In this document: piece after piece, positions 1 to 51,081 of the stretch
Position numbering within the stretch: position 1 is the stretch's first letter
Layout of the letters: each line of letters starts with the position of its first letter
NCBI GenBank assembly: GCA_947643415.1
Contig: CANRWA010000010.1
Span: 1-64,000 of the forward strand
Reading direction: 5' to 3'
DNA: 64,000 nt
From: an uncultured Clostridia bacterium
Lineage (GTDB): Bacteria; Bacillota; Clostridia; Lachnospirales; Lachnospiraceae
The notes under the pieces: model-generated
What the model was told of the DNA's origin: nothing
Seen by the model: the letters and a program-made list of their open reading frames with translations, nothing else
Database searches by the model: none
Program-made: the position numbers and the translations under genes

Positions 1-60
1 CTCTGCTCTGCTCTGCTCTGCTCTGCTCTGCTCTGCTCTGCTCTGCTCTGCTCTGCTCTG
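1..60. repeat. (CTCTG)12 pentanucleotide tandem repeat
   Basis: Twelve perfect CTCTG units run up to the left edge of the window, so the full length of the array is unknown. On the minus strand the units read as in-frame codons of the gene that starts at 85, giving the repeated pentapeptide EQSRA. The unit is 5 bases, not a multiple of 3, so gain or loss of one unit would shift the frame. That is the standard architecture of a slipped-strand phase-variation tract. Confidence 0.95.
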
Positions 61-85
61 ACATATTGTCACCTGCTTTCTTCAT
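1..85 (-). CDS. 5' end of a probably phase-variable gene (runs off the window)
   Basis: The start ATG at 85-83 follows a ribosome site AGAGGGG with 8 bases of spacing. The first codons give MKKAGDN-MSEQSRA and then read through the CTCTG array as repeated EQSRA, with no stop to the window edge. An in-frame ATG at 64-62 is an alternative start. The gene lies about 110 bases after the end of the DAC-fold gene on the same strand, so it is probably the last gene of that cluster. Only 28 codons are visible and the function cannot be told. The array is in frame with the start in this copy. Whether the gene is ON depends on sequence beyond the edge. Confidence 0.7.
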   Translation of the reverse strand, partial: MKKAGDNMSEQSRAEQSRAEQSRAEQSR

Positions 86-192
86 CCTGTCAACCCCTCT
101 TTTGTAATATTTTACCACTTTTCATTTAAGAAAACAACATTAAATATTTCCGTCTATACGGTTGCGATTCATGGCAAGTTTTTGCAAGATGC

Positions 193-25586: not shown

Positions 25587-27389
25587 ATGAGGAAAAAGGA
25601 CTACATAAAAACTACAATTATTACGATATTTATTATGATAGCATCCATAGGCTTTCATTTTCTGGGAGCGGCAGGATCATGGGATGTCAGGATTTCGGAC
25701 TGGCTGAACCAAAAAGAGACAGTCACAGATAAGAAAATATACATAATTGGAATTGATGATAAGACTCTTGAAAAATACGGTCCTGTAAATACCTGGAGCA
25801 GGGAGATCCCTGCAAGATTAGTAGAACTACTGAATGCCGACGGTAAGACACATCCGGCAGTGATCGGTTTCGATGTGATCTACAGCGAAAATGTGGATGA
25901 AACAGCCGATAACCATTTTGCCAAAGCCTGCCAAAAGGCTGGGAATGTGGTGGCTGCCATGAGTTTTTCCTTTAAAGAACAGCCTGAAACGGAGGAAGAT
26001 GGAACGGTTATTTACAACCCATATCATGTAGAGGATGTGATCACACCCTACAAGAGCCTCAGGGATAGTGTGGACTGCGGATTTGCCAATACTACCATTG
26101 ATGCGGATGGGTGTGTGCGCCAGGCAATGGCATACGTTGACCACAATGGGGAGCCTGTATACAGCCTGTCCTTCCAGTGCTACAAAAAATATCGGAAAAG
26201 CCAGGGGAAAGAAGCAGAACTTCCTGAAACATATGGAAGGAACAACAGCTTCTATTTTTCCTATTCCGGCAAACCCGGTGGGTATAACCTTGTCTCCATG
26301 GCAGATGTACTGGATGGAACTGTAGATGCAGGAATCTTTCAGGATGCCATTGTGCTGGTGGGTGCTTATGCTGTAGGAATGCAGGATGCCTATCCTCCTG
26401 CCGTGAGCCATAACAGCCAGATGTATGGAGTCGAGATCCATGCCAATATCATAGAGGCATTGCTGGAAGGGAAGACACAGCTCCCCGTCTCCCCTCTCCT
26501 TTATGCCATTGCAGCAGGACTGATCTGCGGAATATTCTTTCTGCTGGTGAGAAAGGCAAAGATTGTGATCTCTTCCCTCCTGCTTGCTGCTTTCGTCATT
26601 CTGGATCTAATCCTGGCAAAAGTATTTTATACCAGAGGTATAGTCACTCCTGTGATACTGCTGCCTGTGGTCCTTGCCCTCATCTATCTTGTCCGGCTGA
26701 TACAGGGGTATCTTGTGGAGATACACCGCCGGCGGCATGTACTCAATGTATTTAAACAATATGTGGCGCCCCAGGTAGTGGATAAGATCAGCAAAGACAG
26801 GGATTTTAAACTTGTACTGGGCGGGGAGACCCGTCATGTCGCCGTACTGTTTGTGGATATCCGGGGCTTTACTACCATGTCAGAAAGTCTCCGCCCAGAT
26901 GAAGTAGTGGAGATCCTCAATGAATATCTGAGCCTTACTACCAAATCTATCTTTGATAATGGGGGAACCTTGGATAAATTTGTGGGGGATGCCACTATGG
27001 CAGTATTTAACGCACCATTTGATCTGGACGACTATATTTTCCGCGCCGTCTGTACCGCCTGGGATATGAAAGCCGGGGCAGACGCCATCGCCGATCAATT
27101 CGAGAAACGGTTTGGGAAACGCGTTGCCTTCGGAATCGGTATCAACTGTGGCGAAGCCGTCGTTGGAAATATCGGCTGTGATTTCCGTATGGACTATACA
27201 GCCATTGGAGATACAGTGAACACCGCCGCGCGTTTGGAGAGCAATGCGGAGCGCGGACAGATCCTGATCAGCGAGCAGGTATATGAGGCAGTAAAAGACC
27301 GCACCGAAGTAACACCTATTGGCGAGATCCCGCTTAAGGGAAAGAGCAATGGGGTTTTTGTATATCAGTTAGATAAGGTGATGAAATAA
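25587..27389 (+). CDS. CHASE2-domain class III adenylate cyclase
   Basis: 600 residues from ATG 25587 behind AGGAGG. One membrane helix, an extracellular CHASE2 sensor (about 25-290: IIGIDDKTLEKYGPVNTWSR), three more helices (about 300-375), then the cyclase domain. VAVLFVDIRGFT and KFVGDATMAVF supply metal-binding aspartates and the adenine-selecting lysine. YTAIGDTVNTAARLES holds the transition-state residues. It should be an active adenylate cyclase responding to an outside signal. It leads a five-gene group with a TIM-barrel protein, an HD-GYP protein, a secreted protein and a FecR protein. Confidence 0.93.
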   Translation: MRKKDYIKTTIITIFIMIASIGFHFLGAAGSWDVRISDWLNQKETVTDKKIYIIGIDDKTLEKYGPVNTWSREIPARLVELLNADGKTHPAVIGFDVIYSENVDETADNHFAKACQKAGNVVAAMSFSFKEQPETEEDGTVIYNPYHVEDVITPYKSLRDSVDCGFANTTIDADGCVRQAMAYVDHNGEPVYSLSFQCYKKYRKSQGKEAELPETYGRNNSFYFSYSGKPGGYNLVSMADVLDGTVDAGIFQDAIVLVGAYAVGMQDAYPPAVSHNSQMYGVEIHANIIEALLEGKTQLPVSPLLYAIAAGLICGIFFLLVRKAKIVISSLLLAAFVILDLILAKVFYTRGIVTPVILLPVVLALIYLVRLIQGYLVEIHRRRHVLNVFKQYVAPQVVDKISKDRDFKLVLGGETRHVAVLFVDIRGFTTMSESLRPDEVVEILNEYLSLTTKSIFDNGGTLDKFVGDATMAVFNAPFDLDDYIFRAVCTAWDMKAGADAIADQFEKRFGKRVAFGIGINCGEAVVGNIGCDFRMDYTAIGDTVNTAARLESNAERGQILISEQVYEAVKDRTEVTPIGEIPLKGKSNGVFVYQLDKVMK

Positions 27390-31656: not shown

Positions 31657-32835
31657 ATGCAGAAAAAAATAGCGATCATCCTGACCGGAATTATAGTCCT
31701 TGCGGCAGGAATCTTCCTGACGGTCCACTTTCTCTCCAAAAAGACAGACTCCTACCGTTCCATTCTGATCTACCAGTTAGAAGGAAAAGCAGAAATTGAA
31801 CGGGAAGGTGCCGGAACCATTACTGCCGCCAATAATCTTTATCTTGAATCCGGGGACAAAGTCAGGCTGGACAGCGGCAGTTCCATGCGTCTCAGGCTGG
31901 ATGATGACAAGTATATCATGGTAGAGGAAAATTCGGTTCTCTCCATTCAGGCAGAAGGCTCAGATCAGGACTCCAAAACAACCATTAACCTTGAACAGGG
32001 AGCCATCACCAACGAGATACAAAATAAACTGACGGAACAGTCTGCCTATGAAGTAAACAGTCCCAATTCCATTATGGCAGTCCGCGGAACGATCTTCCGG
32101 GCAGAGGGGTACATAGATCAGAACGGAGTGAAACAAACAAAAATATCCACCTTTAACGGTACAGTAGGATTTCAACCCATCGCACCAGATGGTACAAAAC
32201 AGGAAGAGGTCCTAATTGAGGCAGGAAAAGAAGCTGTGCTCCAAAGTACATCCGATGGCATCCAGTATCTGAAAGAGCCCTCTGATATCTCATTTTCAGA
32301 ACTTCCACTCCAGGCACTTCATTTCCTGCAGGACCTTCTGGAAAACGGCGCTCCCATCACCTGCCTCTCACTGGACGACCTGCAGAAACTGATCCGGGAA
32401 TCAGAAAACAAGAACGAAACCAATTCGGATCCGCAATCCAGTTCAGCCCCGCAGGCCAATTCTGACCCACAAGCCAGTTCTGAAGATAGGGAACCAGCCG
32501 GACAGGACAGCACACCAGATCCGGATTCATCGAATCCTGAATCCACGGATAACGAATCGGATTCGGATTCCGGCCAGCAATCCCCGGATAACGATACACC
32601 TTCCGGACAGGACTCCCCGAAGAAAACTCCTTCCGGGCAGGAGGCCGATAAAAAAGAAAATAAAACATATACGGTTACATTTAAATATAAGGGAACGACT
32701 TTTGGCGTACAGACCGTAAAAGATGGACATACTGCTTCTGAGCCTAAACTGAGCCCGGAATCCAAGGGTAAATGGAACTTTGATTTTTCACAGAAAATTA
32801 ATAAGAATATTGTTATTAATTGGATAACTGAATAG
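31657..32835 (+). CDS. FecR-domain protein, membrane-anchored
   Basis: 392 residues: an N-terminal anchor (about 5-25), a FecR domain (about 45-195, with YEVNSPNSIMAVRGTIFRAE), a Ser/Asp/Pro-rich linker (about 250-330) and a C-terminal module resembling one Listeria-Bacteroides (InlB B-type) repeat. FecR domains sense or transmit envelope signals. FecR and CHASE2/cyclase domains occur together in other bacteria, which supports a joint role with the cyclase upstream. AAAGGAGG precedes the start. It is the last gene of the row and is followed by a strong terminator. Confidence 0.85.
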   Translation: MQKKIAIILTGIIVLAAGIFLTVHFLSKKTDSYRSILIYQLEGKAEIEREGAGTITAANNLYLESGDKVRLDSGSSMRLRLDDDKYIMVEENSVLSIQAEGSDQDSKTTINLEQGAITNEIQNKLTEQSAYEVNSPNSIMAVRGTIFRAEGYIDQNGVKQTKISTFNGTVGFQPIAPDGTKQEEVLIEAGKEAVLQSTSDGIQYLKEPSDISFSELPLQALHFLQDLLENGAPITCLSLDDLQKLIRESENKNETNSDPQSSSAPQANSDPQASSEDREPAGQDSTPDPDSSNPESTDNESDSDSGQQSPDNDTPSGQDSPKKTPSGQEADKKENKTYTVTFKYKGTTFGVQTVKDGHTASEPKLSPESKGKWNFDFSQKINKNIVINWITE

Positions 32836-49770: not shown

Positions 49771-51081
49771 TTATGCACTTTCTTCTGAAGTTTCTGCCCC
49801 TGCCGGATGCATCTTAGGATCCTCCAGAAGAACAACGCCACCCGGTCCACTGAGGCGGGGCACTCCATCCCCCTCGATAACGCCTTTCGTTATTACACAT
49901 TCTGTCACATCATCCCGTGATGGCAGGTCAAACATATAGTCCATCATACTGCTCTCCAGGATTGCCCGCAATCCACGGGCCCCGGTCTTTCTCTCTGTAG
50001 AGAGACGTGCCACTGCCCCCAGGGCATCCTCCTCAAAGGATAGTTTCACGCCATCCAGTTCCAGTAATTTCTGGTACTGTTTTGTTATAGCATTTTTCGG
50101 ACGCACCAGGATCTCCTTCAGCGCCTCCTCATCCAGAAGATCCAGGGATACTGTCACCGGCACACGTCCAATGAATTCCGGTATCAATCCAAATTTCACA
50201 AAATCCTGCGGCAGCGCCTGTTTAAAAAGTTCCCCCACATTCTGCTGTGTCGGATCTGAAATATCGGCGCCAAATCCAATGGATTTTTTGTCAATGCGGG
50301 AGCTGATAATCTTATCCAGGCCATCAAACGCACCACCACAGATAAACAAGATATTAGTGGTATCAATGTGGAAAAATTCCTGCTGTGGATGTTTTCTTCC
50401 GCCCTGTGGCGGAACACTCGCCTCTGTTCCCTCCAATATCTTCAAAAGCGCCTGCTGCACTCCCTCACCAGACACATCCCTGGTAATGGATACATTTTCT
50501 GCTTTCTTCGTAATCTTATCAATCTCATCCAGATAAATGATCCCCCTCTCTGCACGGGCAATATCATAATCGGCTGCCTGAATGATCTTCAGCAGGATAT
50601 TCTCTACATCCTCCCCAACATAACCAGCTTCTGTCAGGGTAGTAGCATCTGCTATGGCAAAAGGAACATTCAGTATTTTTGCAAGTGTCTGGGCAAGATA
50701 GGTCTTGCCGGAACCAGTAGGCCCCACCATAAGGATATTACTCTTCTGCAGCTCCACATTCATATCCCGTCCCGCCTGTATCCTCTTATAATGGTTATAG
50801 ACTGCCACTGAAAGGGCACGTTTTGCGTCCTCCTGTCCCACTACATATTCATCCAGGAACTGTTTGATCTCCCTTGGTTTCAGGAGATTGATCTCTTCCT
50901 CATCTTTATCCTCATAATTTTCCTGATACTCTTCTTCCAGAATCTCATCACACAGATCCACACACTCATCACATATATAAACACCACTTGGTCCCGCAAT
51001 GAGCTTGCGCACCTGCTGCTCTGTCCTGCCGCAGAAAGAACAGCGCAGCCGCGGCATGTTATCACTATTTTTTCCTGCCAT
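49771..51081 (-). CDS. clpX: ClpX unfoldase subunit
   Basis: 436 residues from ATG 51081 behind AGGAGG. N-terminal zinc domain with C-x2-C (RCSFCGR) and C-x2-C (ICDEC), Walker A GPTGSGKT, Walker [10 protein letters not shown], and the IGF-type loop region (SIGFGAD) that docks to ClpP, whose gene is 99 bases upstream. Confidence 0.97.

Follow-up and report, generated by a model that had tools for sequence, protein, structure and literature searches.

What does a long, perfect pentanucleotide array control when it stands at the very edge of a contig? The window (the whole 64,000-nucleotide stretch analysed) opens with such an array, which a first-pass annotation took for the 5′ end of a phase-variable gene, an interpretation that our results partly support. 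We argue that the array probably supplies the hypermutable segment of a pil1-like attenuator, one that makes transcription phase-variable, placed before a probable diversity-generating retroelement (DGR) operon.

Array and leader at the contig end

Positions 1-60 consist of 12 perfect CTCTG units, the number first annotated. The sequence CTCTGCTCTGCTCTG has 10 matches in the window against 0.00 expected from 100 shuffled windows, and the chance expectation for three consecutive units is 0.00. Base 1 of the window is also base 1 of its contig, C10 of assembly G000 (230 contigs). The contig end therefore truncates the array, and 12 units is a lower bound. On the minus strand the array reads (GAGCA)n from base 58 downward, within a leader open reading frame, MKKAGDNMSEQSRA(EQSRA)..., at 1-85. 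This frame starts at ATG 85-83, with an alternative in-frame ATG at 64-62, translates as MKKAGDNMSEQSRAEQSRA... and runs out of the window. A ribosome-site-like AGAGGGG (94-100, minus strand) lies 8 nt ahead of ATG 85-83, bearing out the earlier description of a translated-looking minus strand with a good ribosome site and EQSRA repeats.

The same strand carries TTGACA at 88-93 and, 17 nt past it, a −10-like hexamer of unexplained function, GACAAT (65-70), which the first full GAGCA follows after 6 nt. TTGACA-17-GACAAT lies very near the array and makes a better promoter-like pair than the leader promoter that we propose farther upstream; it is unlikely to be the switch promoter because its transcript would miss the leader start. 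The proposed leader promoter, read by eye, would consist of an extended −10, TGGTAAAAT (109-117, minus strand; TGATAAAAT in the decayed copy on contig C30 described below), and a weak −35, TTGTTT (132-137, minus strand; 3 of 6 consensus bases), 17 nt before TAAAAT. A consensus promoter scan made no call on TTGTTT-17-TGGTAAAAT.

Two genes precede the array on the same strand, a DAC-like gene (334-1506) and a peptidase-like gene (1523-2995), in agreement with the neighbours first named as a DAC-fold protein and a metallopeptidase. The DAC-like frame (minus strand) has a Pfam DACNH match and scores 72.7 bits with NCBIfam DS2_3_antiphage, far under the cut-off of 630; its in-frame TAG at 336-334 falls in the middle of the conserved end, and the frame is then open until TGA 195-193. 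The peptidase-like frame (minus strand) shows a HELAH motif by eye, and searches of it against Pfam and NCBIfam gave zero matches. The two genes are perhaps a defence pair. Upstream of the leader, at about 126-183, lies a short dispersed repeat (ACTTGCCATGAATCGCAACCG...) with six other places, on C16, C31, C24 and C18 of G000 and on C2 and C10 of genome G044. Two short imperfect tandem repeats, with periods of 18 and 21, occur farther into the window at 32434-32483 and 50944-50984.

The probable other end of the array

A whole-genome pattern search found only one other site in G000 with four consecutive units, C52:26939-26988. Contig C52 ends at 26991, and its final 53 bases are array, with the same unit and orientation as on C10. 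The array head on C10 and the array tail on C52 are each typical of such arrays. Because G000 has only two array ends, both at contig ends and in equal orientation, we infer that C52 joins C10 and that the leader frame continues from the window into C52.

A decayed second copy of the locus, at C30:40091-40190, contains head, two GAGCA units, tail, terminator and an avd fragment in one contiguous piece, the avd fragment stopping after 19 codons. Its tail is 79% identical to that of C52 over 98 of the 98 nt searched. Its 67-nt head, which begins AGAAGGGGTTGACAGAATGAAAAG... and carries GGGGTTGACAGAATGAA, scores 55.5 against the C10 head, above 1000 of 1000 shuffles (shuffle maximum 44.5), and outranks all 116 other array heads compared with that of C10; since the runner-up (L174) reaches 54.0, a small margin, the likeness is partly a motif common to these arrays. 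A BLAST search with the C10 head within the genus did not have C30 among its matches, which fell in G000 (4 other places) and G044 (2), all to the short repeat at about 126-183 and none to the array head. Gene order in G023 and G001, two genomes with DGR-type loci, gives no support for the join, as other genes precede avd there.

Predicted terminator and leader frames

Given the join, the 27-nt C10 head and the C52 tail define in silico where a leader of n units would end: at +3 after the array if n is 0 (modulo 3), at +82 if it is 1 and at +26 if it is 2. A predicted intrinsic terminator (-14.3 kcal/mol) occupies +61 to +91 after the array on C52 and would lie between the array and the first gene. 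After the short tail (locus L009, minus strand) comes its hairpin, AACCATGGATT...AATCCATGGTT, and then TTTTTT; in a 45-nt piece the hairpin reaches -16.3 kcal/mol (z = -4.7, with 0 of 200 shuffles equally stable). The n=0 and n=2 frames end 58 and 35 nt before the hairpin, respectively, and the n=1 frame enters it. The avd frame starts at ATG +86 according to the gene-finding tool; GTG +119, behind AAGGAG, is the likelier start. Rfam gave zero matches in the three loci L259, L214 and L202.

A probable pil1-type switch

The closest described system is the pil1 pilus operon of Streptococcus gallolyticus. According to Danne et al. 2014 (PMC3894217), the pil1 leader peptide contains 22 GCAGA repeats, a cyclic form of GAGCA, and expression is low when the peptide stops 49 bp before the terminator (39 in the figure legend) and high when it stops 4 bp before it or inside it. 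Chloramphenicol reduces read-through, removal of the leader start makes expression low and removal of the terminator makes it high; an equivalent switch is described for pil3, which makes two pilus operons of one Streptococcus species (PMC3894217).

C10-C52 shares with pil1 and pil3 the cyclic unit, a short leader frame with a ribosome site and a terminator tens of bases on, and, as in pil1, one frame stops well ahead of the terminator and another inside it (PMC3894217). The mapped pil1 promoter, TTGTGT/AATAAT, lies upstream of the leader frame, like the position proposed for C10. The two differ in cargo and polarity: pil1 drives Streptococcus pili, as measured, whereas the C10-C52 switch, predicted from sequence, would control a probable DGR operon in a genome of Lachnospiraceae type, and pil1 has one low and two high frames, whereas the prediction for C10-C52 is reversed, with two low and one high (PMC3894217).

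In Streptococcus suis modS (PMC8125046), a GAGCA(n) tract switches within the gene's own reading frame. C10 shares its unit and slippage logic, but no long frame follows the C10-C52 array. Many array heads in our set resemble CTTGACAGCC, part of a PCR primer used on the modS tract (PMC8125046). With the cyclic unit switching both modS and pil1 (PMC8125046 and PMC3894217), the phase variation suggested at first pass is probable, and the part that fails is the long gene whose 5′ end the array was thought to be. The parallel then drawn with Neisseria and Haemophilus captured a known mechanism of repeat switching, and the nearest precedents are instead these Gram-positive streptococcal loci.

The observed anatomy, frames, predicted terminator and family similarity suggest the following course, in which the join, the promoter, the switching, the ribosome-driven read-through and DGR activity are inferred. 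Transcription, initiated upstream of base 109 or reading through from the preceding genes, would yield a leader RNA that carries a ribosome site followed by a short frame through (GAGCA)n. Replication slippage would alter n, and n modulo 3 would determine whether the ribosome stops at +3, +82 or +26. At n=1 (modulo 3) the ribosome would enter the hairpin and block the terminator, letting polymerase proceed into avd, the template repeat, the reverse transcriptase and the target (ON); at other n the leader would end 58 or 35 nt short of the hairpin and most transcription would stop (OFF). A population would then be a mixture of cells able and unable to express, and perhaps diversify, the DUF6273 target protein.

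The operon behind the predicted terminator

Past the terminator, C52 carries in order an Avd-like gene, a template repeat (TR), a reverse transcriptase (RT) and a DUF6273 protein, an arrangement that probably constitutes a DGR. The target protein contains two DUF6273 stretches and begins with what looks by eye like a signal sequence; it is predicted to be secreted. Avd matches PHROG 3206 ‘Avd protein of DGR’ (E = 2.9e-16); its best models in Pfam and NCBIfam, bAvd (36.7 of 40) and DivGenRetAVD (38.3 of 80), stay under the curated cut-offs. The RT matches RVT_1 (60.3 bits) and PHROG 1423 ‘Reverse transcriptase’ (E = 1.9e-109). In NCBIfam its best models were a group II intron RT (100 of 300 bits) and Drt3a (81 of 200), both below cut-off, and no DGR RT model matched. 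We tentatively assign the RT to the DGR type because Avd, TR and VR adjoin it and because it has a GNQTSQ motif, which we take to be a mark of that type. Both RT and avd are open frames, and the RT retains YMDD.

The TR matches two places in the target. Adenine is the base most often changed in the first pair, but not the only one (A 16/39, C 9/28, G 8/41, T 1/27), and the second pair, which has gaps, is similar (A 20/48, C 12/32, G 8/51, T 6/42). By their sequences TR and VR have drifted apart, and recent DGR activity seems doubtful because the mismatches are not limited to adenine. DGR-type loci in G023, G001 and L214 resemble C52 in their avd-TR-RT-target order, with RTs 51-66% identical, and the G023 and G001 targets have DUF6273 as in C52. 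Mismatches in G023 (A 25/57; C 4/29, G 6/43, T 7/44) and G001 (A 14/33; C 1/20, G 2/27, T 3/21) are more clearly biased to adenine than those of C52. Unlike C52, these two DGRs have no repeat leader; L214 has one. A second RT in G000, on contig C1 (L218 2000-3100, minus strand), is 65% identical over residues 102-372, lacks the N-terminal part and directly precedes what looks by eye like the start of a secreted protein.

L214, a 3654-base contig of the metagenome-assembled genome Ruminococcaceae bacterium RUG11259, holds array, terminator and DGR in one contiguous piece: GGGAAAGGA, TTGACA, ATG, (GAGCA)8 at 116-155, a terminator to about 279, avd, TR, RT at 1081-2100 and a target with VR. Identity to the C52 proteins is 53% for the RT and 49% for Avd, its avd carries an in-frame TAG at 531, and its TR/VR changes peak at adenine (26/41, against 12/43, 15/54 and 13/37 at the other bases). 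Arrays are no regular component of DGRs: among 140 array loci, of 8-15 kb at most each, L214 alone had RT and Avd matches, and only L136 and L116 besides it had target-like matches. Conversely, in a set of 63 locus records that match RT or Avd (1.5-4 kb of flank each, some covering one same element), a long array occurs only at the G000 locus, and L272 has two units. The pairing of attenuator and DGR is rare, with L214 as its second case.

GAGCA arrays in other genomes

A contig-wide pattern scan for TTGACA, 12-40 bases and five units returned at least 117 stretches, mainly from Firmicutes, with some Deltaproteobacteria, Fusobacteria, Synergistales and others, as judged uncounted from record titles. 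A five-unit pattern that did not ask for TTGACA matched 12 of the 392 genomes in the order of G000, against 0 for the reversed pattern; in its genus the array occurs in 2 of 39. The matches listed (at least 117) and 8 more loci gave, with 3 duplicates dropped, 128 arrays with distinct flanks. Among these, 53 are leader-type, meaning that a hairpin with a T run occurs no more than 110 nt away, 17 continue as open frames of 100 codons or longer, 37 lie near a contig or locus end and 21 are other.

The frame test was run on the 53 leader-type arrays, sorted into 18 groups by shared tail words, leaving out the 37 end-near, 17 coding-type and 21 other arrays. Among the matches listed, 17 of the 18 groups combine at least one frame entering the hairpin with at least one ending no less than 15 nt short of it, where shuffling of the spacer gives an expectation of 9.8 (p = 5.6e-5; p = 8.1e-5 with random representatives); the idea for the test arose from much the same loci, so this p-value is not independent confirmation, and the pil1 paper was found afterwards. 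An earlier run on 80 of the at least 117 loci had given 17 of 19 against 10.0 expected. The earliest stop falls within 10 nt of the array in 14 of the 18 groups against 9.2 expected (p = 0.016, same matches). Assembled leaders are mixed in state, 18 being ON-like and 22 OFF-like among the 40 scored from the 53 in the matches listed; of the remainder, 11 lack a clear start and 2 an exact count of units. Complementarity between head and tail as the switch was also considered and found weak (mean 5.26 against 4.66 for swapped pairs, the maximum of 200 swaps being 5.07). The head-tail counts, like the TTGACA gap, purine-tract and start-codon counts given below, come from 80 of the at least 117 loci, whereas the frame test, the search of array loci for RT, Avd and target matches and the ranking of the C30 head used all 117 listed.

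Pfam was run on 20 chosen proteins downstream of arrays, from 33 loci. SLH, LRR_5, LPXTG/SpaA, Big_2, Flg_new or beta-helix matches appeared in 7 of the 20 (L099, L108, L111, L117, L120, L140 and L182), and single matches to AbiH (L180), a histidine kinase (L172), PP2C (L197), TetR (L199) and RCC1 (L109), with a CS match in L131. The three coding-type proteins tested, L184, L189 and L206, all have Acyl_transf_3; the downstream proteins of L100, L226, L203 and L149 had no Pfam match. L149 (7562-7680, plus strand), from Streptococcus intermedius SK54, has its array within a leader of which the one open frame ends at TAATG, overlapping the start of a mod-like gene that follows a hairpin holding its ribosome site. 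By eye that gene looks like a type III mod, 109 codons of it having been examined, and L149 is perhaps a translational form of the switch.

Other arrays lie in the middle of genes of viral contigs and bacteria: C5 methylase genes (L061, L128), PAPS reductase genes (L069, L073) and an EcoRI-type methylase gene (L124). The L073 and L124 genes are split out of frame, and those of L069 and L061 remain in frame. Three genomes matching termite-gut Firmicutes records, G235, G250 and G302, have 14, 12 and 8 array places, many at contig ends, and L107 of Lactococcus chungangensis DSM 22330 has 66 consecutive GAGCA units on the minus strand.

Promoter-like sequence at arrays and other readings of the locus

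The spacing of TTGACA before arrays is regular. The gap is 23-29 nt at 103 of the 105 sites that have the hexamer within 45 nt, many of which were preselected for TTGACA 12-40 nt before the array. A promoter-like pair (at least 9 of 12) stands just before 24 of 28 order-level arrays, including 18 from three termite-gut genomes, against 49 of 1860 random positions, in a search that did not require TTGACA; for viral arrays located likewise the counts are 11 of 21 against 25 of 1380. The spacing is seen in leaders and at gene starts, and in viral contigs it persists even within genes, those for C5 methyltransferase and PAPS reductase, where TTGACA occupies two reading frames. Ahead of TTGACA, 36 of 68 array sites show a ribosome-site-like purine tract, as do 0 of 66 background promoters; within 2-4 nt after TTGACA there is a start codon at 46 of 68 against 7 of 66, many of the 68 sites being homologous copies. 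Translation start and promoter would thus overlap at arrays, and our unproven proposal is that the array owes its continued instability to transcription that begins there. An extension of this idea, which we hold tentatively and consider rather unlikely, is that GAGCA arrays are portable hypermutable cassettes with a built-in promoter, whose transcription drives their instability; before a DGR, such a cassette would form a two-tier diversifier, a slippage switch acting on a targeted mutator.

The same promoter-like pair, with its enrichment over random positions in both array sets, would also suit a working TTGACA-17-GACAAT promoter whose RNA starts at the array, leaving an untranslated (GAGCA)n leader to tune expression, for example by TRAP-like binding of GAGNN repeats. 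The ideal TRAP target consists of GAG triplets spaced by two bases. C10-C52 has this spacing ahead of a terminator, as in TRAP attenuation of Bacillus subtilis, but differs in that its leader is proposed to be translated and that G000 has no match to TrpBP (PF02081). Searches for this protein gave no match in G000 (94.64% complete) or G002, while 2 of 41 genomes had one, as did the B. subtilis control, and we reject TRAP attenuation on the absence from G000 and G002. An untranslated leader more generally fails to explain the start codons and ribosome-site-like tracts at TTGACA, or the frame pattern of the leader groups, and we judge it quite improbable.

The locus could instead be a relic or a neutral microsatellite, with both DGR and leader non-working. 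TR and VR differ at C and G besides A, the C30 copy has decayed to 2 units and a truncated avd, and the L214 avd has its in-frame TAG; against these stand the open RT and avd frames of C52 and the intact YMDD, and a long perfect array would be unexpected without recent slippage or selection. We regard such decay as very unlikely.

Highly improbable is the modS-like coding switch of the first-pass annotation, with the array in the first codons of a long gene, readable at every third value of n: the ribosome site, the ATG and the stop-free array would fit it, as would the 17 of 128 arrays (among the matches listed) that enter open frames, the three tested being Acyl_transf_3, but all frames read on into C52 close within 82 nt of the array, before avd, which rules out such a gene given C52 as neighbour and comes close to the stop shortly after the array in all frames that the annotation itself had named beforehand as refuting. 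The pil1-type attenuator remains the reading that we prefer.

Implications

The kind of switch is already known. Its use on a DGR, or its spread beyond streptococci, was not found in the literature searched, whose coverage was partial and leaves absence unproven. If the attenuator reading is true, a bacterial mutator, the DGR, would be under stochastic on/off control, and the cost and use of targeted diversification, here of a surface protein, would fall to only part of the population. The pil1-type switch would recur in other Firmicutes before genes with S-layer, LPXTG, leucine-rich-repeat and abortive-infection domains, and the ON and OFF repeat numbers at such loci would be predictable.
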